From NCBI GenBank assembly GCA_944390795.1, contig CALXRI010000011.1, positions 1-64,000 of the forward strand: DNA of 64,000 nt. The letters run 5' to 3'. This document shows, piece by piece, positions 5,786-32,106 of this stretch; the stretch's first letter is position 1, and every line of letters begins with the position of its first letter. The notes below the pieces were generated by a model. That model did no database searches. It was given only the letters and a program-made list of their open reading frames with translations, and had not been told where the DNA came from. The DNA is from an uncultured Victivallales bacterium. GTDB taxonomy: Bacteria; Verrucomicrobiota; Lentisphaeria; Victivallales; UBA1829. The position numbers and the translations under genes are program-made.

Positions 5786-7111
5786 ATGTCAGGAATTTTC
5801 AAAGCCTACGATATCCGTGGCGTCTATCCGGAACAGCTGGACGAGAATATCGCCGAGAGGATCGGAAGAGCCGTTGTTGTTTTTCTCAAGGCAAAGAAAA
5901 TCGTGGTCGGAAGAGACATGCGCCCCCATTCGCTCCCGCTTTTTGAGGCGCTGGCAAAGGGCATTACGGAACAGGGCGCGGATGTCATCGATCTGGGCAT
6001 GTGTTCGACTCCGATGAGCTATCACGCGAACGGCAAGCTCGGCGCGGATGCCAGTGTCATGATTACCGCTTCCCATAATACCGCCGAATGGAACGGCTTC
6101 AAAATCTGCCGGGAACAGGCAATTCCGGTCAGCGGTGCGACCGGCATCGCGGATATTGAGGCTCTCGTTGCGAAAAATGAGTGGCCGCAGCCGGAACGGA
6201 TCGGCACCATTTCCCACTACGACATCGCAAAAGAATACGGGGAATTCCTCCGCTCCAGAGCCAGAATGGATCGCAAACTCAAAGTTGTTGTCGATTATGC
6301 CAATGCCATGGGATCCTATGAGATTGCCGGCATTGAAGATCTCTTTGATATTGTTCCGCTATACAAAAAACTGGACGGCACCTTCCCGAATCACGAGGCG
6401 AACCCCCTGCATGCGGAAACACTGAATGCCCTCCGCGCCAAGGTCGTGGAATGCGGAGCGGACTTCGGCGCCGGATTCGACGGCGACGCGGACCGCTGCG
6501 GCTTCGTGGACGACAAAGGGCAGATTATCCCCATGGATCTTTTCACCGCACTGATTGCAGAGGACATCCTTTCGGAAAAGGGGCAGGGCACGGTTCCGAT
6601 TCTTTATGACCTGCGCAGCAGCTGGGCAGTCAGGGAGTGCATTCAGGAAAACGGCGGACGGCCGATCATGTCCCGCGTCGGCCATGCCTTCATCAAGGCG
6701 CAGATGCGCGAATGCGGCGCGGTGTTCGCCGGAGAACTTTCCGGGCATTACTATTTCCGGGAGAATTATGTCGCCGAATCCCAGGGGCTTGCCATGATCA
6801 AGCTTGCCAATCTCATCTGCAGAAAGAAAAAACCGCTCAGTGAACTGGTTGCTCCGCTCCGGAAATACTTCTCCAGCGGAGAGATCAATTCCAAGGTGGC
6901 GGATGTGAAGCCGGTCCTTGACCGGATCAGAACCAAATATTCCGACGGGCATATGTTCGAACTGGACGGCATCTCCGTGGAATATTCCAACTGGTGGTTC
7001 AATGTCCGCGCCTCCAATACGGAACCGCTTCTCCGTCTTATTGTCGAAGCAAAAGACAAGGCGACGATGGAGGAGAAACGCGACGAACTCCTGAAACTGA
7101 TCCGAAGCTGA
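5786..7111 (+). CDS. Phosphomannomutase/phosphoglucomutase
   Basis: 441 residues, the usual length of bacterial PMM/PGM (ManB/AlgC type). It interconverts mannose-6-P and mannose-1-P and/or the glucose phosphates, supplying sugar nucleotides or recovering them from glycan breakdown. Signature elements are visible: the phosphoserine loop ITASHNTAEWNGFK, the metal loop GFDGDADRCGFVD, the sugar-binding loop GELSGHYYFREN and the C-terminal phosphate-binding stretch RASNTEPLLRLIVEAK. AAGGAG lies 9 nt before the ATG at 5786. It is a single-gene unit: a promoter candidate is upstream and a strong terminator follows. Which hexose phosphate is preferred cannot be read from the sequence. Confidence 0.93.
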   Translation: MSGIFKAYDIRGVYPEQLDENIAERIGRAVVVFLKAKKIVVGRDMRPHSLPLFEALAKGITEQGADVIDLGMCSTPMSYHANGKLGADASVMITASHNTAEWNGFKICREQAIPVSGATGIADIEALVAKNEWPQPERIGTISHYDIAKEYGEFLRSRARMDRKLKVVVDYANAMGSYEIAGIEDLFDIVPLYKKLDGTFPNHEANPLHAETLNALRAKVVECGADFGAGFDGDADRCGFVDDKGQIIPMDLFTALIAEDILSEKGQGTVPILYDLRSSWAVRECIQENGGRPIMSRVGHAFIKAQMRECGAVFAGELSGHYYFRENYVAESQGLAMIKLANLICRKKKPLSELVAPLRKYFSSGEINSKVADVKPVLDRIRTKYSDGHMFELDGISVEYSNWWFNVRASNTEPLLRLIVEAKDKATMEEKRDELLKLIRS

Positions 7112-7164
7112 TTGCCGCAGGACGGTTTTCCGCCTCCGTTCTTTCCGCCGGCGGATTCCGCAAT

Positions 7165-7205
7165 AAAAAATCCCGCACCGCTTTCCATGCGGCGCGGGAT
7201 TTTTT
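7165..7205. terminator. Bidirectional intrinsic terminator
   Basis: A perfect 12-bp inverted repeat, A6-TCCCGC (7165-7176) and GCGGGA-T6 (7194-7205), with a 17-nt loop. The A-run and T-run let it act on both strands. It sits between the convergent phosphomannomutase gene and hydA, and probably ends both transcripts. Confidence 0.92.
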
Positions 7206-7227
7206 CTGATACGCGAAAACGGACCGG

Positions 7228-9255
7228 TCAGGAGAGTTTCGCAAGCTCTTCGGCAAGCACTCTCTTGACGGCTTCCATATCGGCTCCGTCCAGCTTGACG
7301 GTGCCGATCATCACTTCGCCAGCCTTGCGCCCTGTGGCGGATGCCGGCGCGTAAGCCGCCTCAATATCCACACGGGAGGATACGCCGAGCGCGTCAGCAA
7401 GCGAGATCATGCTGTTCAGCACCCGTTCCGCCTTGTGATCCTCATCGTTCGCCGGAGTCACGCAGACCGCGATCGAGACGCATTTCGGAGAGGAACCCTT
7501 CTGCACCAGATAACGTGCATCGAACACGCTGTCGCGGTTTTCATACGCGGTATGGAGCAGTTCATGCGCCTTGTGGGAATTCGGACGGCCGTCGAGGAAC
7601 TTTTCATAGCATTCGATGACGGTCGGATTATCCTGTGATTTCTGGAACTGCATGTTCTTGTCGGTCTTGTAGAGACCGTTCATTCTCTTGATCTTGCTGG
7701 TCCGGTCGTTCGTGATCGGCTGTCCGCCGCCGCAGACGCAGCCTCCCGGACACGCCATGACTTCAATGAAGTGGTAGGGCGACTTTCCCGCGGCCGCCTC
7801 GGATGCGACTTTTTTCGCTTCGGAAAGCGTGTTCACGACAGCGATCCGGAGTGTCTTGTCCCCCGCCTGAATTGTCGTTTCCTTGAAGCGTTCCGATCCT
7901 CGCACGGCCGGAAATTCGATTGCATGCGGCACTTTGCCGTTGATCTTTTCCGCGGCATAGCGCAATGCGGCTTCCATCACGCCGCCGGAGGTTCCGAAAA
8001 TTACGCCGGCGCCGGTTCCGAATCCGAGCGGCATGTCAAAAGCCTCCGCCTCGAGTTCCGCAAAATGGATGCCGAAGGAATGAATCATCGTGCCGACTTC
8101 CGCAGTCGTGATGACATGATCAATATCGGGAATTCCGTTGGTTTTGAACTTATCAAGTTTCGCTTCGAATTTTTTCGCCGTGCAGGGCATGATCGAAACG
8201 ACGACAATGTTTTCACGAGGAATATTGAGAATCTTCGGAAGCGCCTCCTTGGCGATGCTTCCGAACATCTGCTGCGGAGAACGGCATGTGGAAATATTGG
8301 CGTTGAGTTCGGGGAAGTTCGTTTCCGCGTATTTGACCCATCCGGGGCAGCAGCTTGTGAACATCGGGAAGGGGCCTCCCGCCTGCACCCTCCGCAGGAA
8401 CTCTTCGGCCTCTTCGACGATCGTCATGTCCGCGGCGAAGGTTGTGTCGTAGACATAGTCGAAGCCCATCAGACGGAGAGCTGCCACGAGTTTTCCCGCG
8501 AGGTTCTCTCCCGGAGGCATATTGAAGTATTCGCCGATGCCGACGCGGACCGCCGGGGCGATCGAGGCGACGACAATCTTCTCCGGATCGTGAATTGCAC
8601 GCCAGACGTCCTCGCGTTCCTGTTTCGGCGTCAGTGCCCCCGTCGGACAGACCTGGACGCACTGACCGCAGTTGATGCATTCGACGGATCCGAGATTGGA
8701 TTCAAATGCCGGAGCCACCTTGGAGTGGGAGCCGCGGTGCGTGAAGTCGATTGCGCCGATACCCTGCACCTCCTTGCACATTCTGACGCAGTCGCCGCAG
8801 AGCACGCATTTGTTCGGGTCGCGCGTCAGGGCGGGCGAGGATTCGTCGATCGGCTGGAATTCCGTGACCTGCTTGTAGCGGATTTCCTCGACGCCGAGAC
8901 GGCGCGCGAGATTCTGCAGCGTGCACGAGGAGCTCCGGATACATGAAGGGCATTCCCGTTTGTGGTTCGCAAGCAGCAGTTCGATGTTGATTTTGCGTAT
9001 CGCCCGGAGCTTCTTGGAGTCCGTGTGAATCTTCATTCCCGGTTCCGGGGCAGTGGAGCAGGAGGCCATGATGCCGCGTCCCTCCACTTCGACAAGACAG
9101 AGGCGGCAGGCTCCGTATGCGCTCAGTTCCGAGTGATAGCAGAACGTCGGGATTTCAATTCCGATTCTCCGGATCACTTCAAGGAGGTTCTTCTCGGAAC
9201 CGATCTCGACTTCGTGACCGTTGATGGTCAGGGTTTTCTTTTTCATATTTTCCAT
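7228..9255 (-). CDS. hydA: [FeFe] hydrogenase catalytic subunit, NAD-linked trimeric type
   Basis: 675 residues. It reversibly reduces protons to H2 at the H-cluster and, with HydB and HydC, couples this to NADH and probably ferredoxin. Domains in order: plant-type [2Fe-2S] ferredoxin (Cys 39, 50, 53, 66), a His-Cys3 [4Fe-4S] region (HKRECPSCIRSSSC), a two-cluster ferredoxin domain (CVLCGDCVRMC and CINCGQCVQVC), then the H-cluster domain with all three signatures: TSCCPGW, MPCTAKKFE and EVMACPGGCVCGGGQP. After the usual end of the small-subunit region there is a C-terminal extension of about 97 residues (579-675) with only two cysteines (592, 598), too few for the thioredoxin-like [2Fe-2S] domain seen in some homologues. 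AGGAG lies 10 nt before the ATG at 9255. Last gene of hydCBA, 22 bp after hydB. Confidence 0.96.
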   Translation of the reverse strand: MENMKKKTLTINGHEVEIGSEKNLLEVIRRIGIEIPTFCYHSELSAYGACRLCLVEVEGRGIMASCSTAPEPGMKIHTDSKKLRAIRKINIELLLANHKRECPSCIRSSSCTLQNLARRLGVEEIRYKQVTEFQPIDESSPALTRDPNKCVLCGDCVRMCKEVQGIGAIDFTHRGSHSKVAPAFESNLGSVECINCGQCVQVCPTGALTPKQEREDVWRAIHDPEKIVVASIAPAVRVGIGEYFNMPPGENLAGKLVAALRLMGFDYVYDTTFAADMTIVEEAEEFLRRVQAGGPFPMFTSCCPGWVKYAETNFPELNANISTCRSPQQMFGSIAKEALPKILNIPRENIVVVSIMPCTAKKFEAKLDKFKTNGIPDIDHVITTAEVGTMIHSFGIHFAELEAEAFDMPLGFGTGAGVIFGTSGGVMEAALRYAAEKINGKVPHAIEFPAVRGSERFKETTIQAGDKTLRIAVVNTLSEAKKVASEAAAGKSPYHFIEVMACPGGCVCGGGQPITNDRTSKIKRMNGLYKTDKNMQFQKSQDNPTVIECYEKFLDGRPNSHKAHELLHTAYENRDSVFDARYLVQKGSSPKCVSIAVCVTPANDEDHKAERVLNSMISLADALGVSSRVDIEAAYAPASATGRKAGEVMIGTVKLDGADMEAVKRVLAEELAKLS

Positions 9256-9277
9256 TGTGTTTGAGCTCCTGTATTAA

Positions 9278-11176
9278 TCAAAGTCCGGTTACCGCGCCGA
9301 ATTTGCAGGCGGTCTTGCAGGCGCCGCAGCGGATGCATTTGTCCACATCGATCTTATGCGGCTGCTTGAGCGCGCCGCTGATCGCGCCGACAGGGCACTT
9401 CTTCGCGCAGACCGTGCATCCGCGGCACTTGTCCGCAAGAATTTCCGGAACAGCCAGCGCCTTGCACTGGCCTGCGGGACATCGCTTGTTGCGGACGTGC
9501 GTCTCATATTCCTCGCGGAAGTGGCGCAGTGTGGAGAGAACCGGATTCGGGGCGGTCTTTCCGAGACCGCACAGGGAACCCAGCTGTACAGCCTGCGCGG
9601 TCTCCTCAAGGAGCGAGAGCGTATTTTCGTCCGCCTTGCCCTTGGTGATGTCGTCAAGCAGGGCGAGCATCTGCTTGGTGCCTTCGCGGCAGGGAACGCA
9701 CTTTCCGCAGGATTCGTTTTGCGTGAAGCGCATGAAGAATTTTGCCACGGCCGGCATGCAGGTCTGCTGGTTCATGACAACGAGCCCGCCGGAACCGACC
9801 ATCGCGCCGACGCTCTTGAGCGAATCGAAGTCGAGCGGGAGGTTGATCATCTCCTTCGTGAGACAGCCGCCGGAGGGACCTCCGATCTGAACCGCCTTGA
9901 AGTTGTCCGGGGAGATTCTGCCATGGTCGTCCGTGACGCCGCCGCCGATCTCGTTGACGATTTCGCCGAGCGTGGTTCCGAACGGAACTTCAATGAGTCC
10001 GGTGTTCGCAACGTGTCCGGTGAGGGCGAAGGTTTTCGTTCCCGGCGACGTGGGTGTTCCGAGTTCGCGGAATTTCGCCGCGCCTTCGCGCACGATGTAG
10101 GCGACCGTCGCAAGCGTCTCGACGTTGTTGATGACGGTCGGCTTGCCCCAGAGACCGCGCTGTGCTGGGAAGGGGGGCTTGGGCATCGGCATGCCGCGCT
10201 TGCCTTCGATGGAGGCGATCAGCGCCGTCTCCTCGCCGCAGACGAACGCGCCCGCTCCTTCCATGATGTGAATCCGGAAGCCTCTGCCGGAGCCGAAGAC
10301 GTTTTCCCCGAGAATGCCGACGCGCTCAGCGTCCTTCACCGCCGCGAGCATCCGTTCGACGGCCAGCGGATATTCCGCGCGGACATACACATAGCCTTCC
10401 GTCGCCTCGATCGCGCGGGCGGCGATCATCATTCCCTCGATCACGGTGTGGGGATTGCCCTCCATGACGGAACGGTCCATGAACGCGCCGGGGTCGCCCT
10501 CGTCGCCATTGCAGATCACGTATTTGACGTCGTTCTTGGATGCGAGCGTGAGTCTCCACTTTCTGCCGGTCGGGAAGCCGCCGCCTCCGCGTCCCCGGAG
10601 TCCGGAGTCCTCAAGCACCTTGCAGACCTCTTCCGGCGTCATTTGCGTAAATGCCTTCCGCGCCGCCTCGTATCCTCTCTTGGCGATGTATTCGCTGATG
10701 CTGGCGGGTTCGATTGTGCAGTTGGCCAGCACAATGCGGTGCTGTCTCTTGTAGAACGGAATCTCATGGTCGCCGCGGTAATGCTTCCCGTCAAGAGGAC
10801 TCTGATAGAGAAGACGCTCGATCACATTGCCGCCGAGAATGGTTTCGCTGACGATCTCCGCTGCGTCGGAGGCCTTGACCTTCGTGTAGAGAATGCCGTC
10901 CGGCTCGATACGGAGGAGCGGCCCCATCTGGCAGAAGCCCTGGCAGCCGCTCTTGGAAACGTAGTGGGAATTTTCCTTGAGTTCCTCTTTCTCAAGGTCG
11001 GTGTTGACGTTGAGGTTGTGTCTGGCAAGCTCTTCGAGAATGGCGTCGCGGACGGCGAGGGAGCCGTTCGCCACGCAGCCGGTGCCGGCGCAGATGATGA
11101 TCCGTTTCTTGACGCCGTCGAGCTTGTTCTTATAGTCTTTCGCGCATACGTCGATGTCGATGGTCTTGTTGCACAT
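9278..11176 (-). CDS. hydB: NADH-dehydrogenase-type subunit of trimeric [FeFe] hydrogenase (NuoF-like)
   Basis: 632 residues. This flavoprotein subunit binds NAD(H) and FMN and is taken to be the bifurcating component in HydABC enzymes. Domains in order: an N-terminal thioredoxin-like [2Fe-2S] domain (CAGTGC near 29-34 and CQGFC further on), a NuoF core with FMN/NAD loops GRGGGGFPTGRKW and CNGDEGDPGAF, an SLBB region, the [4Fe-4S] motif ESCGKCVPCREGT, and a C-terminal two-cluster ferredoxin domain (CRGCTVCAKKC and CIRCGACKTAC). The length and cofactor set match HydB rather than complex I NuoF, which lacks the terminal ferredoxin domains. AAGGAG lies 12 nt before the ATG. It is 19 bp from hydC and 22 bp from hydA. 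Confidence 0.95.
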   Translation of the reverse strand: MCNKTIDIDVCAKDYKNKLDGVKKRIIICAGTGCVANGSLAVRDAILEELARHNLNVNTDLEKEELKENSHYVSKSGCQGFCQMGPLLRIEPDGILYTKVKASDAAEIVSETILGGNVIERLLYQSPLDGKHYRGDHEIPFYKRQHRIVLANCTIEPASISEYIAKRGYEAARKAFTQMTPEEVCKVLEDSGLRGRGGGGFPTGRKWRLTLASKNDVKYVICNGDEGDPGAFMDRSVMEGNPHTVIEGMMIAARAIEATEGYVYVRAEYPLAVERMLAAVKDAERVGILGENVFGSGRGFRIHIMEGAGAFVCGEETALIASIEGKRGMPMPKPPFPAQRGLWGKPTVINNVETLATVAYIVREGAAKFRELGTPTSPGTKTFALTGHVANTGLIEVPFGTTLGEIVNEIGGGVTDDHGRISPDNFKAVQIGGPSGGCLTKEMINLPLDFDSLKSVGAMVGSGGLVVMNQQTCMPAVAKFFMRFTQNESCGKCVPCREGTKQMLALLDDITKGKADENTLSLLEETAQAVQLGSLCGLGKTAPNPVLSTLRHFREEYETHVRNKRCPAGQCKALAVPEILADKCRGCTVCAKKCPVGAISGALKQPHKIDVDKCIRCGACKTACKFGAVTGL

Positions 11177-23399: not shown

Positions 23400-26300
23400 T
23401 TACCGGATCTCCTCCAGCGCGATATCGTCAATCAGGAGTTCCGCGGATGACTGGTTGACGATCTGGAAATAGTTCCAGCGGACCGCGGAGACCTTCAGCG
23501 TTTTTTCCGTCCGGACCCACTCCTTCGACTGCGGAATCGGAATGATGTGTCCGGCGAACATCAGCGTATTTCCGCCTTCCGGGGATTTCGTGTAAAAAGA
23601 GATTTTATAGTTTTTTCCATCCTCCGCGTCGAAGTTGACCGGAACAACGGCGACACCCTGTTTCCTTCGGTCGGAGGGGGCGATCCGCAGAGCATATTTC
23701 CCCCCGTGCGCATCCGTCGTGAGACTGATCTTTTCATACGCCCATGCACCGCTGGGGCGGTAACGGCACATCCACCAGTCAGGTTTTCCGTCGTCCGCCG
23801 AATCCGTTTCGAAATCCGCGTTCGGGAGGCGCGGCATGACGGCTTTTACCCTGGAGAAATTCATTCCTCCGCCTCTGACTGCAACTTCGATTTCACTGAT
23901 TTCACGCAGTTTTTCCATGCCGGAGACGCTTACGGGGACTTCCCGCTCCTCTTTCGGCGCAAGGGTTGTCTCCTTCTGAATGCCACAGTGCAGCGGCGCT
24001 TTCCCCGATGCGGAGAGAGCAAGGCGGAGTGGTTTCCCGGAGAGATTCCGCAGCCAGAGCCGGAAGGTTCCGTGCCGTCCGCGGAGATCCGCAAGCAGCG
24101 GCGGATTGACCACGGCATAATGATAGGCGTTGAAACTGCCTGCGCCGGAAGAGACTTCCGTCCAGACGTCATAGCGTCCCCGGCGGGCGTTTTCCGGAAC
24201 CTGACAGCGCAGAAGAAGTTCGGTTTCCGCGCCCGGGGGCAGGGGGCCGTAGGAGACTTTTCCGGATCCCCGCCAGGATGCGGGAAGCTTCTGGCAGACC
24301 GTTCCGGAAAGCGTTTCCGCGTTGACATTGATGATTTTCACTTTCTGCGTCACCACGCCGCCGGGACAGGTGACGGGATTCTGGCTCCACTGCACCAGCG
24401 GGCGCACGCGATTGGACAGCACGACGGAGGCCGCTTCCACTGCCGGAACGTCGAAGGTGTACCTCATTCCCTTCTGCGTTCCCTTCAGGACAAAAGGCGC
24501 ACCCGCGAGGGGAAAGACCATCGCATGAGCGACCGGCCCGAACTCTTCCGTGTCAATGCTGAGCGTCATTCCCCGATGGGACGTCGTGGTGAAATTTCTG
24601 CCTTTCCGTTTTTCCGAGGCGACATTGATGAGATTGATTACGGCTCCTTTTTCCCCGCCGCGGCGGTAGAGAAACCAGCGGCCGGTGACGCCTGTGGACG
24701 CAGGCGCGGGCAGATCGGAACCTTTTTCGAAACGGATCGTGTCGTTCACGGTTCTTCCGGCGGCATCGCGGATGACTATGCCTTTCGCATCCATGTATTC
24801 CGCATCGTACAGCATGCTCTTCACCGCCCGGCGGAGCGCGAGGTATTGCGGATAAATGCCCTGTTCGAAGCGGGCGCCGGTCTGCCAGATGAAGCGGTGG
24901 AGTTTCAGCGTGTCTCCTCCGTTCCAGCGCCCGTCGATGACGAGATGGGACGGGTTGGCGTATTTGTAGACCTGATGCTGCGCGAAGACGCCGCTTGTCA
25001 TGTGCAAGTCCAGATGCTGCCCGATGATTTCATTGCAGACTTCTCCCGCGCTGGTCGAATAGGGATTGACGCGCCGGGATTCCTCCTTGATTCTGCGGAT
25101 CGTTTCAGCGCTTGCCTTGATCCAGCTTCCGTAGCTTTCCGCGAAATCCGGATAGAGACGCCCGTTGTAATAGGTCATGTTGAGCTGGTCGTAATACATG
25201 CCGTCTCCTCCCCACTTGAGGTAGCGCGCCGTCCATTCCCGCAGCCATCTGCGCCATTCCGGGGAGCAGACCGCCATGGGATACTGTTCGAAATGCTCCG
25301 TTTCCACCCGTGCGTAGGATCCGTCGTATTTCCGGGTTGCCACTTCTGCATACCAGTTGTCGTCTGGAAGCGGAGCGTCTGCCGGGAGCCTCACCTTCGG
25401 ATAGGATCCGATCCTTTTGTAATGGCCGTAGCCGGGAGCCCAGAGATTGAAGTTGATGTAGGAAAGCAGGAATCCGCCGAGCGCCCTGTGAAGAGCGAGT
25501 TTTTCCTGGAATTCCCGGACGCTTCCCCATACCAGGCAGGGATACGGGTAGACGCCGCAGTAGGCCGCGTCGGCTCCGTCCAGCATCTGGCGGTTCACCG
25601 CGGAAAATGGAATATCCGAGCAATATCCCTTCTCCGTGAAGCTTCTTCCGCTGTACTGATCCCAGTCCATGGAGTTCAGCACGTCCCAGCCTGTCCATGG
25701 GTAGCGGTTGGAGTCGGGATAAATCCAGCCGTCGGCCAGCCATTTGACGCAGGGATGGATGTCCGGCTGTTTCAGGCTGGCGCAATTGTAGCTGCGCGCG
25801 ATGTCGGCCGCGGGAATCCAGCTGCCTCCGTCCACAAGGGCGAGACGGCAGACGCCGCTCTCCCAGCGGGAGGCGCCTTTTGCCAGCATGCGCAGGGTGA
25901 CGCCCATCATCGCCCCTCCGTTGCCGTCGGAACTCCGGTGGAAATACCAGTCGTCGAAACGCGGGTCCTCGATGCCCAGATAGACGCCCTGCTTCGCATC
26001 CCACATCGCCATGAACCGGACGGATGTCGGCATTTTTCCGCCTTTTCTCCGGTAGGCGTTGCGCCAGATCTGGCGCCAGGTCTCCGCGCAGAATGTCAGA
26101 TCGTCGGACGGATCCGCGCCGAGGGCGACTCCGTGAAAAACCGGGTATGCCAGTTCGCAGACTTCCAGTCCCGGAGGCGTCTCGATCGAAGCCGTCCATT
26201 CGGACTGTCCGTCTTTCCGCAGACGCACCTTCGGAGAAAAACGGATTCCGCTGGGAAATGAATATTGAAAGTGCAATTCGGGCTCTTCCCTCGTGCCGCC

Positions 26301-27887
26301 GCTTTGCATTCCTTCGAATGCGGCATTCAGCAGATCGACCGGCTCCGCCGGCGCGTCTCCCGCTTTCTTTACCGTGAGTTCCGCCAGCGGCGCGCTCACC
26401 GCGGAACTCCGGAGAACCTGGCTTCCGCGTTTTTTATCCACGATCCTTCTCACCCGGATCCCGTCGAATTCAATCCTTGCGGCGCCGTTTTCCAATACCT
26501 TGACACTGCCGCTTCCCGGAAGATATTCCAGTGCGCCGCCGTTGAAGAGCGGCGTTTTTCCGGCAATTCCGTTCACCGCGACCTGAAAACGGATGCGGTC
26601 GGAACCGTCGCCCCGGCAGGGAACTGCCGACAGATCGCCGCCGGGAGGCAGTTTCTTCCAGCTTTTTCCGCCGTCCGTGCTGTAGAGGACATTGGCGGCT
26701 GCGGCGTTCAGGATGTCGAACGTCACGCGTTTCCATTGTTTCACATGGAAGGGGCGCACCTCCGCGGATGTCACTTTTGCCTGTTGTGGTCCTCCGGACG
26801 GGGAAACGGGAAGCATGGCGCTCGCCGGCTTCCCGCTCTTTTCCGGTATGAGCGCAATCTGATCGAGGCGCGCGCCGCCCATGTAATTCAGCGAGAAGGA
26901 GTGTTTTCCCGTGTTCAGATCCGCCGCGATGCCGCGAATCCATTGCCAGCCGTCCGCTGGTCCGAGCGTTCCGTCGACGACGTATCCGCCCTCTTTTCCC
27001 AGGGACTCGGAGTGGTTCCATGCTCCGGAATGCGGAAAGAACGAGCGCAGCCAGATCCGGTAGCGTCCCGGCGTCCGGATCTCAAAATTCCATTTCGCCG
27101 ATTCCACGTAGCGGAGGACGGCTCCGCCGGATGCGCCGTCCGTTTTCATTACCGGATTTCCGTTGTTTCCCGTCACTTCGGCCGCATGTTCCGCCTCCAT
27201 GACCAGCGGACCGGCTCCCTCCTGCACAAAGAACCCGCGATGGCGAGCGCCGTAGGAATAGGCATGCAGATGTTCCGCTTTCTCGACCCGCAGATCCCGT
27301 TTCGCCGGCGGACTCTCCCGTTTCAGCGCCGGGATGACTTTCACCCGGAGCGAACCGATCGCGAAGTGGTTCACCGCTCCATTGTGAAGATCAAGGCGCA
27401 GATCCCCTCCGTTGAGCCGGTTGCTTTTGAAATCCGCATAGGGCAGGGGAAGCAGAAGGGTTTTCCATTGCCGGTCTCCGTTCAGCGGAATCTTTCCGCA
27501 GTCGGGGGTCCGCCATGCGCCGGGCTGTGTTTTGATCCTCCGGCAGGTGGCGTCGGAGGAGTCGTAATAGAGATGAAACGATCCGGGTGCGCCGTCGTAA
27601 TAGACGATTTCCAGCGCAAACATGGAGTCCGCCCTTGCCGCCGGCGGAAGGAGTGCTTCATCCAGCTTGTCGTCGACCTTGACGTAAATGACGCCGCTGG
27701 AAGTCAGTCCTTTCTTCCCTCCTGCGCTTATTATGGAGTATTTACCCTCTTTTCCACCTGCACGTTCCCAGAATGACATGCCGTTTTCTTCGGCTTCGCC
27801 GTCCGGCTTCAGCGAAACTCCGCAGTCCGCGGCGTGTCCGGAGAGGCAGACCGCCAGCGCTGCTGACACCCAGAATATCTTTTTCAT
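23400..27887 (-). CDS. Large secreted multidomain glycoside-hydrolase-like protein (DUF6259-like)
   Basis: 1495 residues. Signal peptide (1-19, MKKIFWVSAALAVCLSGHA). An N-terminal beta domain (20-185) is closely related to the separate small protein encoded just upstream. A carbohydrate-binding-like module follows (about 205-350, VMEAEHAAEVTG to GGARLDQIALIP). The large central part (about 470-1190) resembles DUF6259 glycosidase-like proteins, with SVRFMAMWDAKQGVYLGIEDP and a barrel segment ending in WGGDGMYYDQLNMTYYNG, whose acidic residues are candidate catalytic sites. The C-terminus (about 1340-1495) looks like a CBM4/9-type jelly roll. It probably acts outside the cytoplasm on a complex glycan; linkage unknown. 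Last gene of the operon headed by the GntR-GH38 fusion. Confidence 0.78.
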   Translation of the reverse strand: MKKIFWVSAALAVCLSGHAADCGVSLKPDGEAEENGMSFWERAGGKEGKYSIISAGGKKGLTSSGVIYVKVDDKLDEALLPPAARADSMFALEIVYYDGAPGSFHLYYDSSDATCRRIKTQPGAWRTPDCGKIPLNGDRQWKTLLLPLPYADFKSNRLNGGDLRLDLHNGAVNHFAIGSLRVKVIPALKRESPPAKRDLRVEKAEHLHAYSYGARHRGFFVQEGAGPLVMEAEHAAEVTGNNGNPVMKTDGASGGAVLRYVESAKWNFEIRTPGRYRIWLRSFFPHSGAWNHSESLGKEGGYVVDGTLGPADGWQWIRGIAADLNTGKHSFSLNYMGGARLDQIALIPEKSGKPASAMLPVSPSGGPQQAKVTSAEVRPFHVKQWKRVTFDILNAAAANVLYSTDGGKSWKKLPPGGDLSAVPCRGDGSDRIRFQVAVNGIAGKTPLFNGGALEYLPGSGSVKVLENGAARIEFDGIRVRRIVDKKRGSQVLRSSAVSAPLAELTVKKAGDAPAEPVDLLNAAFEGMQSGGTREEPELHFQYSFPSGIRFSPKVRLRKDGQSEWTASIETPPGLEVCELAYPVFHGVALGADPSDDLTFCAETWRQIWRNAYRRKGGKMPTSVRFMAMWDAKQGVYLGIEDPRFDDWYFHRSSDGNGGAMMGVTLRMLAKGASRWESGVCRLALVDGGSWIPAADIARSYNCASLKQPDIHPCVKWLADGWIYPDSNRYPWTGWDVLNSMDWDQYSGRSFTEKGYCSDIPFSAVNRQMLDGADAAYCGVYPYPCLVWGSVREFQEKLALHRALGGFLLSYINFNLWAPGYGHYKRIGSYPKVRLPADAPLPDDNWYAEVATRKYDGSYARVETEHFEQYPMAVCSPEWRRWLREWTARYLKWGGDGMYYDQLNMTYYNGRLYPDFAESYGSWIKASAETIRRIKEESRRVNPYSTSAGEVCNEIIGQHLDLHMTSGVFAQHQVYKYANPSHLVIDGRWNGGDTLKLHRFIWQTGARFEQGIYPQYLALRRAVKSMLYDAEYMDAKGIVIRDAAGRTVNDTIRFEKGSDLPAPASTGVTGRWFLYRRGGEKGAVINLINVASEKRKGRNFTTTSHRGMTLSIDTEEFGPVAHAMVFPLAGAPFVLKGTQKGMRYTFDVPAVEAASVVLSNRVRPLVQWSQNPVTCPGGVVTQKVKIINVNAETLSGTVCQKLPASWRGSGKVSYGPLPPGAETELLLRCQVPENARRGRYDVWTEVSSGAGSFNAYHYAVVNPPLLADLRGRHGTFRLWLRNLSGKPLRLALSASGKAPLHCGIQKETTLAPKEEREVPVSVSGMEKLREISEIEVAVRGGGMNFSRVKAVMPRLPNADFETDSADDGKPDWWMCRYRPSGAWAYEKISLTTDAHGGKYALRIAPSDRRKQGVAVVPVNFDAEDGKNYKISFYTKSPEGGNTLMFAGHIIPIPQSKEWVRTEKTLKVSAVRWNYFQIVNQSSAELLIDDIALEEIR

Positions 27888-27919: not shown

Positions 27920-28480
27920 TTATTTGGCGGCGGAAGGAGTCTGCTTTTTCAGTTTCACGGCGGCAATGGCGGCTGCGCTTTTCGCCTTTCCGACGAAATC
28001 AATCCGCAGATCAGCTCCATTGAGCCGGTTGCTCCGGAAATTGAACATGGGCAAGGGCAGGACGACGCTTTTCCATTGTCCGTCACCCTTCAGCGTGACT
28101 TTCCCCCCTTCCGGAACTTTCCATGCGCCGGGCTGTGTCCTGATGCGCAGAATAGCCGGATCCGTGGAATCGTAAAAAACGTTGAAGGAACCCGGCGCGC
28201 CGTCGTAATAGACGATTTCAACGGCAACTTCCGTTCCTTCCGCCCGAAGGGAGGCATCCAGCTTGTCGTCGACCTTGACGTAAATGACGCCGGTGGAAGT
28301 CAGTCCTTTCCGATCCCCGGCGGAGAGAATCGAATATTTTCCCTCCCGGCCGTTGGCGCGTTCCCAGAAGGAAACGCAATTTTCCCTGACGGAACCGTCT
28401 TTTTCCACGGAAACTCCGTATTCCTGTGCGGCGAGGCAGCTTGTGGCGGCAAGCAATGACAGCAGTCCGGCAAATTTCAT
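27920..28480 (-). CDS. Small secreted protein equal to the N-terminal domain of the neighbouring glycosidase
   Basis: 186 residues with a signal peptide (MKFAGLLSLLAATSCLA). The mature sequence aligns over its whole length with residues 20-185 of the 1495-residue protein: shared SFWERA.GKEGKYSI, GVIYVKVDDKLD, EIVYYDGAPGSF, RTQPGAW and SNRLNGADLR. The fold is probably a beta-sandwich carbohydrate-binding or complex-forming domain. AAGGAG lies 9 nt before the ATG. It is 32 bp upstream of the large gene and 78 bp after the prepilin-like gene. It looks like a product of domain duplication kept as a separate soluble protein. Confidence 0.75.
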   Translation of the reverse strand: MKFAGLLSLLAATSCLAAQEYGVSVEKDGSVRENCVSFWERANGREGKYSILSAGDRKGLTSTGVIYVKVDDKLDASLRAEGTEVAVEIVYYDGAPGSFNVFYDSTDPAILRIRTQPGAWKVPEGGKVTLKGDGQWKSVVLPLPMFNFRSNRLNGADLRIDFVGKAKSAAAIAAVKLKKQTPSAAK

Positions 28481-28558: not shown

Positions 28559-29344
28559 TCAGCGGGTGTTCAGGAAAAATTCTCCCTCGGCGGGGTTTGC
28601 GGTCCTGACTGCGAGTTTATACGCCATTCCCGCATAGGAAACGATATCCACATGACCGTCGGCATACGTCACGTTCATCCGGCGGTTATGGGAAAAACGG
28701 TAGTAGTTGATGTTGGACAGATGAAACTGATTCCGTGCGGTCGGACTTTCGCTGCCTTCTCCGAATGCGGCCAGCCGTGAGGGAAACCGAATCCCGGATA
28801 ATTTGATTTTCGTCCACAGGTTTGTGTTCATGAAGGCGTTGCAGAAACGGTCCTGCGCATAGCGGTAGTCATTTGTGGCATTGGCGATATAGCAGTATTT
28901 GTATTCCGCACTGTTGACCGCAAGCGCTTCCGGACAGACGAAAATCGCGGCGGGACGTCCCGCATTCTCCCCGATGCTTTTCGCCATCATGAGGTGATGC
29001 ACAGAATTCTTTTTAAGAACGCTTCCCGTCGATTCGTTGAAATTTCCCTCGGAAGGAGAGATGATGTCGTTCAGATACTCAAACCAGGCGTAATCCTGCG
29101 TGCCGTTGCCGTCGTGGAATTTCCGGCCGGGGTCAAGGTTGGGCGGCGTGAAATCCGAGTTGTCCAGACAATACTGGGCGCACAATACGCCGAACTGTTT
29201 CATGTTGCTTTTGCACTGAACTGTTTTTGCCGTCCTTTTCGCATTGCTCAGAGCGGGCAGCAGCAGGGCGGCGAGAATGGCGATGATCGCTATTACAACA
29301 AGAAGCTCTATCAACGTAAAATTCATTTTCTTCCACATCGGCAT
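28559..29344 (-). CDS. Prepilin-like protein with H-X9-DG signature
   Basis: 261 residues. A class III prepilin leader, [19 protein letters not shown], carries the Glu at position +5 after the cleavage site, followed by the amphipathic helix [20 protein letters not shown]. The globular part has paired cysteines and ends with a [12 protein letters not shown] signature (H-X9-DG), characteristic of the very numerous pseudopilin-like proteins of Lentisphaerae and Planctomycetes. It is probably processed by a prepilin peptidase and exposed at the envelope. It starts 18 bp after the stop of the GntR-GH38 gene, with AAGGA upstream, so both are one operon. A role in capturing or secreting factors for glycan use is inferred only from location. 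Confidence 0.88.
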
Positions 29345-29362: not shown

Positions 29363-32035
29363 TCATTTCCTGCGCAGCAGGAGAGTTTTTATTTCAAATG
29401 GCGCGAATACGACATTTTCCGGATTCAGATGATGCCATTTTCTTTCCTGAAGATCCGATTCGAATATTCCGGTGACGCCGGGAGGAATCTGCAGGAAAGC
29501 CGCCGTATTTCTGCCGAGCGCTTCATAGGCCCTCAGAATCCATGAGCCGTCCTCCCGACGCCGCAGCGAAGAGACGACAAGGTTGTCCCTGTTGAATTCC
29601 GGAAGAGAGAATGGCCTGCCGTCCGGAGTGTCCCGATGCGGGAAAACGAGCGGTTTCCGGTTCAGTCTCCGTCCGAGCTTCAGAGCCGTTTCCGTCTGAA
29701 ACGGCGCATGCGGCGCAAAGGCGAACTCATAGACGTGCGCCCCGTTGTCCCATGCGCCCGGATCCGGACGCATGCGGCCGTCTTCGATTCTGGTTCCGCT
29801 GCGCAGAAGCGCGGTCTGAATGGCTCCCGCCGCAAGCTGATGCGCCGGAGTTCCGCTGTTGGCCATGGCGACGCCGAAGGAGTCATCACTGTAGTCCACC
29901 CAGTGCAGCGCCGGCCAGTCTCCGGAACGGGCATGGGCATAGCTGTTGAGCGGACGCATGGTGGACGCATACTGCTCCGGCACCTCGTAATAGGGTTTTC
30001 GCTCCATGCTGCCGAACGGTATGTCATACAGGGCGGACGCCCGGAAAGGATCGACATTCACTGGGAAACGGACCGCGATTTTCGTGTTGCAGCCGCTCCA
30101 TGTCAGGAAGACGCGGAGCGTAAAGTAGTCCAGTTCATGATAGAAGCGGTATTCCCTGCGGAAGGAGAGCGAGGAAAAGCCGCTCCAGTATGGATCCGTC
30201 GCCCCGTCGATTCCCGCACACGGCAGGCAATGTCCGGAGACGACCGCCTCAAAGAAAACGTCGCCGACGGTGATGCTCTCCACCTCTTCATGCTGGAAGG
30301 CGCGTCCATAGGGTTCCAGGAGAAACGCCTCGTCCCACATGGAGCCCGTGTCTTCGCGGAAAAGAATTTCTCCGAATCCGTCTTCCGCGGACAGCGCGCG
30401 CCCGAAGGTCCGGCAGAAGATTTTCGGATACGGTGAACGGAAATCGACGTCGAAGAATTTTGTGCTGAAGGTCGCCGGCGCGGGGCGCGGCGGAGCGGGT
30501 CTGCCTTTTTTCATCCGGAAACTTCTGGCTCCGCAGCCGGGAAGTTCCGCCGTGAAACAGAGACATTCTCCATCGGACTGCACCGGAACGTCATCCGGGA
30601 TCAGCTCCTCATCGGAACGATACGCCAGGATTGCAGGGCCGGAGGAACTGTCCGGATTGAGCGCCAGAAGAGTGTCCGGCCTTGCCGGGGGCATGTCCGT
30701 CAGTTCCTGTTCCGTGAGAGCAATGCACTTCGTCAGTTTCCGTGTGACATCTTCCGAGGCGGCATCCGTATGGCAGCCGCACACGGCATCGTGAAAGGAG
30801 GCCTCCTGCAGGAGGCGCCAGGGGGCGGAGGATATGGTTCTTTCGAATGCGCAGCCGGCCATTTCCGCTGCGAAGAGCAGGTTCTCCGCCTTCCGCAGAG
30901 TCTGCTTGATTCCGATTCTGGTTGTGTAGCATCCGGTGAAAAAGGGGTTGAACTCCCCGTGGAATTCCGGAAGATTCTCCGGATCAATGCGCATGCAGAA
31001 GTCTGCGACGGAGCCGAACCGGAGGAGATGGCGTCCTTCCGTCCTGTTTACAGCTTCCATCTGGAAGAAGAGCGATTCATGAAAGAGATTCTCCTCGCAG
31101 CAGTAGCTGACAAAGAGATCGTCCGGATATTCGCTGGCGCGGATTTTCAGCATGGATTCGCGGAGGGTTGACGCCTCACTCCGGATGACCGGCACATTCG
31201 TGGCATATCCGGCATGATTGATCTCCGCGGTTGCGGGCGTTACCGTGATGCAGCTTCCGTCGATTCCTTCCCAGCGGAACGCCATATTGCCGCTCAGATC
31301 GGCCGGGCGGTTGCCCAGTCTGCCCGGGATCAGGGCGCGATAACCGGATTTGACCAGAACCTGAGGCAGCTGCGCGCACATGCCGAAGGCGTCCGATTCA
31401 TTGGCGATCCACGGGGAGATTCCGAATGTTTCCTCAAAGTATCTCCGCCCGTCCTGGAGATTGCGGACCAGAAGTTCTCCGGAGCAGAGGTTCAGATCCG
31501 GAATCAGGCTGCCGCCTGTCAGTGTCAGGCGGCCCGTCTCGGCCATTTTCCGGAAAAGCGGGAGCATTTCCGGGCGTTTTTCAAAATAGATCCTGAGCGG
31601 TTCCGCCTGCTCCACATGGACCTGAAAGGTTTCGTTCCGCCGGAAGAATTCGGCCATCCGGTCGAACTGCTTTTCCCGGATTTCCGCATATGCCGCGTAA
31701 GGATATTTCCAGGTCAGATCGGAGTGACAGGTGCAGGAGAGGAAGACCCGTCCGTCCCTGCGCTTGCGCTTCTTTTCCTCCGGAGCGCATGTCCCATTGG
31801 TTTCTTTCTGTTCCCTGACGTAAAATCCCTGCGTGCCCCGGCATTCCAGAAAGCCTTCCGTTTCCAGGTCTTTCAGGGCGCGATAGGCAACGGAGGGACT
31901 GACGGAGAACTGTTTTGCCAGATCCCTGAGCGGAATGATGCGCTCCCCGGGAGCAAGTTCCCCGTTTGAGATATTCTCGGTAATCGCCTCCAGTATTTTC
32001 TGGCGCTTCATCGGATTCGCGTTCAGTTTTCTCAC
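29363..32035 (-). CDS. GntR DNA-binding domain fused to a GH38 alpha-mannosidase domain
   Basis: 890 residues, no signal peptide, one uninterrupted frame. Residues 9-74 form a GntR winged helix-turn-helix (QKILEAITENISNGELAPGE, LRDLAKQFSVSPSVAYRALK, LETEGFLECRGTQGFYV). A basic linker (82-94) leads into a GH38 glycosidase covering the rest. GH38 zinc and catalytic residues are in place: HSD (His104, Asp106), the nucleophile Asp215 in NESDAFG, and His415-Asp416 in FHDAVCG, plus the GEFNPFFTGCYTTR motif. An active alpha-mannosidase that binds DNA and uses its active site as a sugar sensor is inferred, by analogy with MocR-type GntR proteins that carry an aminotransferase fold. Start is GTG 32035 (ATG 32011 is the alternative; both keep the whole domain). 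First gene of a four-gene operon. Confidence 0.88.
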   Translation of the reverse strand: MRKLNANPMKRQKILEAITENISNGELAPGERIIPLRDLAKQFSVSPSVAYRALKDLETEGFLECRGTQGFYVREQKETNGTCAPEEKKRKRRDGRVFLSCTCHSDLTWKYPYAAYAEIREKQFDRMAEFFRRNETFQVHVEQAEPLRIYFEKRPEMLPLFRKMAETGRLTLTGGSLIPDLNLCSGELLVRNLQDGRRYFEETFGISPWIANESDAFGMCAQLPQVLVKSGYRALIPGRLGNRPADLSGNMAFRWEGIDGSCITVTPATAEINHAGYATNVPVIRSEASTLRESMLKIRASEYPDDLFVSYCCEENLFHESLFFQMEAVNRTEGRHLLRFGSVADFCMRIDPENLPEFHGEFNPFFTGCYTTRIGIKQTLRKAENLLFAAEMAGCAFERTISSAPWRLLQEASFHDAVCGCHTDAASEDVTRKLTKCIALTEQELTDMPPARPDTLLALNPDSSSGPAILAYRSDEELIPDDVPVQSDGECLCFTAELPGCGARSFRMKKGRPAPPRPAPATFSTKFFDVDFRSPYPKIFCRTFGRALSAEDGFGEILFREDTGSMWDEAFLLEPYGRAFQHEEVESITVGDVFFEAVVSGHCLPCAGIDGATDPYWSGFSSLSFRREYRFYHELDYFTLRVFLTWSGCNTKIAVRFPVNVDPFRASALYDIPFGSMERKPYYEVPEQYASTMRPLNSYAHARSGDWPALHWVDYSDDSFGVAMANSGTPAHQLAAGAIQTALLRSGTRIEDGRMRPDPGAWDNGAHVYEFAFAPHAPFQTETALKLGRRLNRKPLVFPHRDTPDGRPFSLPEFNRDNLVVSSLRRREDGSWILRAYEALGRNTAAFLQIPPGVTGIFESDLQERKWHHLNPENVVFAPFEIKTLLLRRK

Positions 32036-32046
32036 TGTTTTCGCTC

Positions 32047-32075
32047 TTGTTTCTTGTTGTTTCTTATTGTTTCTT
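32047..32075. promoter_or_regulatory. Three 10-bp iterons before the GntR-GH38 gene
   Basis: TTGTTTCTT occurs at 32047-32055, 32057-32065 and 32067-32075, exactly 10 bp apart (one helical turn), between the -10 and the start codon and covering the predicted start site. It is a strong candidate operator for autoregulation. Direct repeats are less usual than palindromes for GntR proteins. Confidence 0.6.
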
Positions 32076-32078
32076 TAA

Positions 32079-32106
32079 ATTATAGCGTTTTCCCCTCTTT
32101 TGTCAA
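32079..32106 (-). promoter_or_regulatory. Consensus promoter of the GntR-GH38 operon
   Basis: On the minus strand: TTGACA (32106-32101), 16-bp spacer, TATAAT (32084-32079), both hexamers perfect. Such a strong core promoter implies control by repression. Confidence 0.85.

Follow-up and report, generated by a model that had tools for sequence, protein, structure and literature searches.

A GntR-type DNA-binding domain joined to a complete GH38 glycosidase in Victivallales: a probable glycoside-responsive autoregulator

We analyzed a 64,000-nucleotide stretch of DNA from an uncultured Victivallales bacterium (the window) and found that it encodes, in a single chain, a GntR-type winged helix-turn-helix (wHTH) followed by a complete glycoside hydrolase family 38 (GH38) effector domain. 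This fusion is probably a local one-component, glycoside-responsive autoregulator of the GntR superfamily, most likely a repressor, and as such would probably represent a novel type of sugar sensor, with an enzyme fold reading the sugar. A preliminary description of the DNA had reported an uninterrupted 890-residue frame joining the two domains and had read it as an autoregulating mannoside sensor; the observation was confirmed and the interpretation partly supported. The gene and its parts lie in the window as follows:

29363..32035, minus strand: GntR-GH38 fusion coding sequence, 890 aa, GTG start, single open frame
31817..32005, minus strand: GntR winged HTH, residues 11-73, from Pfam and the structural model
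31757..31807, minus strand: linker, disordered and fast evolving, residues 77-93, pLDDT below 50
30983..31741, minus strand: GH38 N-terminal catalytic domain (H104, D106, D215, E314), from Pfam and alignment
30707..30943, minus strand: GH38 middle domain (H415-D416), from Pfam and alignment
29381..30163, minus strand: GH38 C-terminal beta domains, from Pfam

The frame contained zero internal stops, and its GTG start was backed by the N-termini of the family, which align at the same place. All Pfam domains scored over their cut-offs: GntR (PF00392) at residues 11-73 (E 1.1e-11, 44.6 bits against a cut-off of 27), Glyco_hydro_38N at 99-351 (E 1.8e-25), Alpha-mann_mid at 365-443, Glyco_hydro_38C at 625-748 and Glyco_hydro38C2 at 818-885. 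An AlphaFold2 model built with the family alignment as input (mean pLDDT 83.5, pTM 0.81) showed three helices and a two-stranded wing at residues 10-73, then the linker and then the GH38 body. Searched with Foldseek, this model returned the GH38 of S. pyogenes as top match (E 5e-47), with E. faecalis, yeast-type and Golgi enzymes of the family next; the best structural matches shared about 14-18% identity with the fusion. The window protein gave no Pfam match to the FCD or UTRA domains of the FadR and HutC subfamilies, the fold-type-I aminotransferase domain of MocR was absent, the C-terminal part being GH38 by both Pfam and fold, and in NCBIfam the protein fell below all cut-offs among the matches listed. 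As the HTH starts at residue 11, there is no space for a signal sequence, and the fusion protein is thus predicted to be cytoplasmic.

Which residue does what in the GH38 active site is well established, and the His/Asp/Asp/His zinc site and Asp nucleophile of the family are present in the fusion as H104, D106, D215 and H415. These residues and D416, previously listed as retained, proved invariant in a 14-row family alignment, and the catalytic residues were kept in members down to about 35% identity as well as in enzyme-only sisters. The preliminary description had not mentioned one departure: the usual GH38 general acid/base Asp is absent, and every fusion member carries Glu314 at the aligned place, in a loop reading [TKC]-E314 rather than the G-D-G-G-G-G or similar of most GH38 enzymes of these genomes. 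We know of no test of an Asp to Glu change at this position in GH38. Since the closest HTH-less relatives, which are stand-alone enzymes, have Glu here too, it is a subfamily trait and not a fusion-linked loss; we therefore rejected it as a sign of lost catalysis, and infer that Glu314 may take over acid/base catalysis.

A substantial possibility, if not the favored one, is that the fusion is a strict trigger enzyme, in which turnover by the cytoplasmic GH38 sets the DNA-binding state, so that the enzyme is the switch and resets once its substrate has been consumed. This would suit the conservation of all catalytic residues, including the acid/base Glu, in fusions and enzyme-only sisters, and the finding that a relative without the HTH (L070) keeps an intact GH38, whose enzyme half thus seems useful alone; however, the same conserved residues would be needed for mere binding. 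Rather doubtful is the opposite idea that the GH38 has been catalytically retired and acts as a ligand-binding domain only. MocR sets a precedent for such use of an enzyme fold, there of an aminotransferase, on a GntR regulator (PMC5320631), and the replacement of the usual acid/base Asp could be read in this way, but the HTH-less sister enzymes share the Glu and no aligned member has lost a catalytic residue.

Upstream of the fusion gene, and on the same strand, lie a promoter and a candidate operator:

32079..32106, minus strand: sigma70-consensus promoter TTGACA-16-TATAAT, 12/12 consensus matches
32046..32075, minus strand: proposed operator of three 10-bp direct repeats, AAGAAACAAN, between the -10 box and the start codon

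For the strong promoter with iterons of the preliminary description, the positions were corrected to 32106-32079 for the promoter and 32046-32075 for the iterons proper. These repeats, AAGAAACAAT AAGAAACAAC AAGAAACAAG (32075-32046), follow directly after the -10 box and carry AAGAAACAA. A pair of them, allowing up to 2 mismatches, was found nowhere else in the 3.44 Mb genome, the repeat of a paralogous fusion is likewise unique in this genome, and repeats of the window type were retained in an 89% identical orthologue from another Victivallales MAG (G016). We used the 28 other GntR loci of the source genome (L034-L061) as a comparison set. Tandem repeats of about 10-12 bp, beyond those in dinucleotide shuffles, were present upstream of 9 of 14 fusions and only 2 of 28 other GntR genes (Fisher p 0.0002, which serves as a guide only, the members being partly close kin). 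With 2/28 in this control, we rejected 10-bp direct repeats as a general trait of the GntR genes of this genome. An ordinary GntR gene on contig C4 of the genome (L051) does carry 10-bp direct repeats, GTTGCAGAAA, near its start, and phased direct repeats are thus not wholly confined to the GH38 class.

Across the fusions, the half-site TACRAA occurred in 15 of 20 upstream regions compared to 2 of 28 other GntR regions, with 28 copies (5.3 in shuffles) and 16 phased pairs (1.1 in shuffles); the motif was defined by inspection after viewing the sequences and the members include close relatives (the window fusion/L067, L066/L068, L076/L077 and L106/L110), so that p-values overstate independence, and A-rich promoter DNA favors such words, with composition-keeping shuffles falling short of the counts. 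Half-site orientation depended on position, with 19 reverse and 1 forward upstream of the -35 box and 24 forward and 1 reverse downstream of the -10 box. In the L069 operon the fusion takes second place and no separate promoter was seen for it; there the repeats lie at the promoter of the first gene. The motif also varied with the recognition helix, which reads S-P-S-V-A-Y51 in the window fusion and V-[IV]-Q in most other members: V-[IV]-Q members go with TACRAA, and members of the window subclade (V-A-Y, V-V-Y, V-V-H) have AAGAAACAA, AAGAAAGAA or CGAACAAA in its place. As the joint switch of helix and motif is one evolutionary event, it agrees with recognition of the repeats by the helix but is no proof of it. 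The conserved operator-like repeats thus provide comparative evidence that supports the autoregulation through promoter iterons put forward earlier. They also bear on the sign of regulation. Ten members have repeats upstream of the -35 box, which would suit an activator that recruits polymerase from there; we consider this unlikely, since the repeats of the window fusion and its orthologue lie downstream of the -10 box, beside a promoter of perfect consensus, for which no activator should be required, and several members carry half-sites on both sides.

The fusion is not peculiar to the window. A search of the source genome's family combined with a profile search run on 388 genomes from this phylum, which contributed the second family of the order, identified 19 full-length fusions and 1 cut by a contig end, in 12 genomes of 7 genera and 2 families. 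Within the source genome's family, full-length matches came from several genera and spanned query residues about 3 to 888; PF00392 and PF01074 both matched in all 14 aligned members scanned. The genome itself encodes the paralogous fusion (G000:C9:34127-36727). A break of the frame at about residue 75-100 was sought and none was found, and the G016 orthologue keeps the domain join. Outside the phylum, the search covered plasmid records and one pattern scan of genome contigs; the plasmid records contained GH38 relatives, none of which, among the matches listed, aligned with the HTH part.

A tree built from the GH38 part grouped the fusions in one clade (support 99/98), with the HTH-less L109 and L112 as neighbors, followed by L113, L100 and L092. 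The simplest history suggested by this tree is that a stand-alone GH38 enzyme gained the HTH once. In three close pairs, dN/dS was 0.04-0.08 for the HTH, 0.07-0.15 for the GH38 catalytic half and 0.10-0.18 for the C-terminal half, which amounts to purifying selection on the HTH as well as the enzyme and indicates that both functions are maintained; the linker was under weaker constraint and is too short for a firm dN/dS. An artefact, whether through misassembly or a frame error that joined two genes or through chance resemblance of the N-terminus to an HTH, is extremely improbable and was rejected, since the fusion recurs in 12 separately assembled genomes with its HTH sequence conserved; among the three close pairs, constraint is strongest in the HTH in two and roughly equal between HTH and GH38 in the third. 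One gene of this clade (L070; G013:C64, about 6905-9289, minus strand) retains an uninterrupted GH38 frame and every catalytic residue, but the sequence that coded for its HTH is disrupted, and a short stub, RHSGYYV, survives in a different frame; the regulator half seems to have been lost naturally here.

Downstream of the fusion gene, the window contains:

28559..29344, minus strand: prepilin-type (N_methyl) protein, 261 aa, 18 bp after the fusion
27920..28480, minus strand: secreted 186-aa protein, resembling the N-terminal ~190 aa of its 1495-aa neighbor
23400..27887, minus strand: secreted 1495-aa protein, homologue of the DUF6259-like protein behind the L078 fusion

The fusion and prepilin genes are probably in the same operon. 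The N-terminal domain of the 1495-aa protein has a free-standing relative in the 186-aa protein. The fusion occupies the seat before prepilin and secreted genes in the window and in L067, L065, L071, L072, L074, L078, L104 and L108, and does not head any obvious secreted-protein operon in L073, L076 and L077. The cargo genes encode secreted, glycan-related proteins (DUF4838, DUF6259, GH42-like, GH3, pectate-lyase-like and a large unnamed family). In the comparison set, 11 of the 28 GntR genes have a prepilin-type gene within 400 bp, starting 29-266 bp downstream, and most of the proteins have a LacI-type sugar-binding domain, which Pfam assigned as Peripla_BP_3 in 14 cases and Peripla_BP_1 in 8. 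Since GntR-LacI regulators and the fusion thus have a common seat, the GH38 regulator appears to replace the usual sugar sensor, and this seat, shared across members, lends comparative support to the earlier view that the fusion leads an operon encoding secreted glycan-related proteins. More generally, GntR operons of this kind in the genome seem to include prepilin-like proteins as a constant component. A secreted family of 1100-1440 residues recurs behind GntR-GH38 genes (L069:10052-13549, L065:9227-12508, L075:2658-6539, L108:2299-6573 and a 1439-aa ORF in L107); it had no Pfam match in L069, L065 and L075, and its profile had no solved-structure match. Sequence comparison of the cargo proteins with solved structures offered no hint of the substrate. 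Two loci encode an additional, separate GH38 enzyme upstream of the fusion, at a distance of about 110 bp (L076:9509-11992 and L077:9428-11917), which suggests that both proteins recognize the same substrate there.

Taken together, the sequences establish the fusion and its conservation, selection on its two halves, the retained catalytic residues, promoter-flanking repeats of fixed orientation, a site unique in the genome and the operon position; DNA binding, the sign of regulation, the ligand and retained hydrolysis are what we infer from them. In the mechanism that we favor, oligomers, dimeric or larger, whose subunits are joined through the GH38 part would place their wHTHs on the 10-bp direct repeats, and occupied repeats just past the -10 box would block the fusion's own operon, comprising the regulator, the prepilin and the secreted glycan-related proteins. 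Once imported, an oligosaccharide, probably an alpha-mannoside or a similar ligand of GH38, would then fill the zinc-type active site, and the resulting domain rearrangement across the flexible linker would release the operon. A mannoside ligand and trigger-enzyme switching by occupancy or cleavage, as proposed previously, would be consistent with the conserved active site, but GH38 enzymes have other substrates too, the acid/base position is occupied by Glu, and the secreted proteins encoded downstream do not single out a mannan. Only tentatively do we extend this to a protein in which glycosidase and transcription factor are one and the same, so that hydrolysis at the zinc site would directly set iteron occupancy as a self-resetting switch. 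Such proteins would form a new subfamily of GntR regulators with an operator code particular to them, in which V-[IV]-Q pairs with TACRAA and V-x-Y with AAGAAA. Through its predicted operators, ligand class and catalytic residues the fusion lends itself to direct testing and, if it works as proposed, it would be a ready-made glycoside biosensor.

The fusion has the features that define both GntR and GH38 domains, except the acid/base Asp. It shares the full fold, zinc ligands and nucleophile of bacterial-type GH38 enzymes (S. pyogenes SpGH38, 2wyh; E. faecalis, 5kbp; MngB), as well as the H-D-x-x-C-G-C motif of the E. faecalis type, and differs from them in its acid/base Glu and N-terminal DNA-binding domain. 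In E. coli, the GntR regulator MngR controls the GH38 enzyme MngB; these are two separate proteins, with a UTRA sensor, whereas the fusion is one chain. GntR-LacI type (AraR-like) regulators, the common GntR class of this genome, have the same wHTH family and operon seat, but their sensor is a periplasmic-binding-protein fold and that of the fusion a glycosidase fold. MocR regulators likewise join a GntR wHTH through a linker to a whole enzyme fold as effector, and their operators are often direct repeats (PMC5320631). However, the MocR/GabR effector is a fold-type-I aminotransferase with PLP while that of the fusion is a GH38 with zinc-site residues, and repeats are spaced by two or three helical turns in MocR/GabR and by one in the fusion; as the enzyme fold differs, the fusion does not belong to MocR. 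Its nearest precedent is thus MocR in design and the GntR-LacI proteins in position. The open-access literature that we searched contained no description of a GntR-GH38 architecture and, as far as we found, this is the first glycosidase-derived effector on a GntR regulator. In glycan-degrading Victivallales, one chain would tie oligosaccharide recognition to the expression of secreted enzymes, and the fusion would add a glycosidase to the enzyme folds that have been turned into sensors of bacterial transcription factors.
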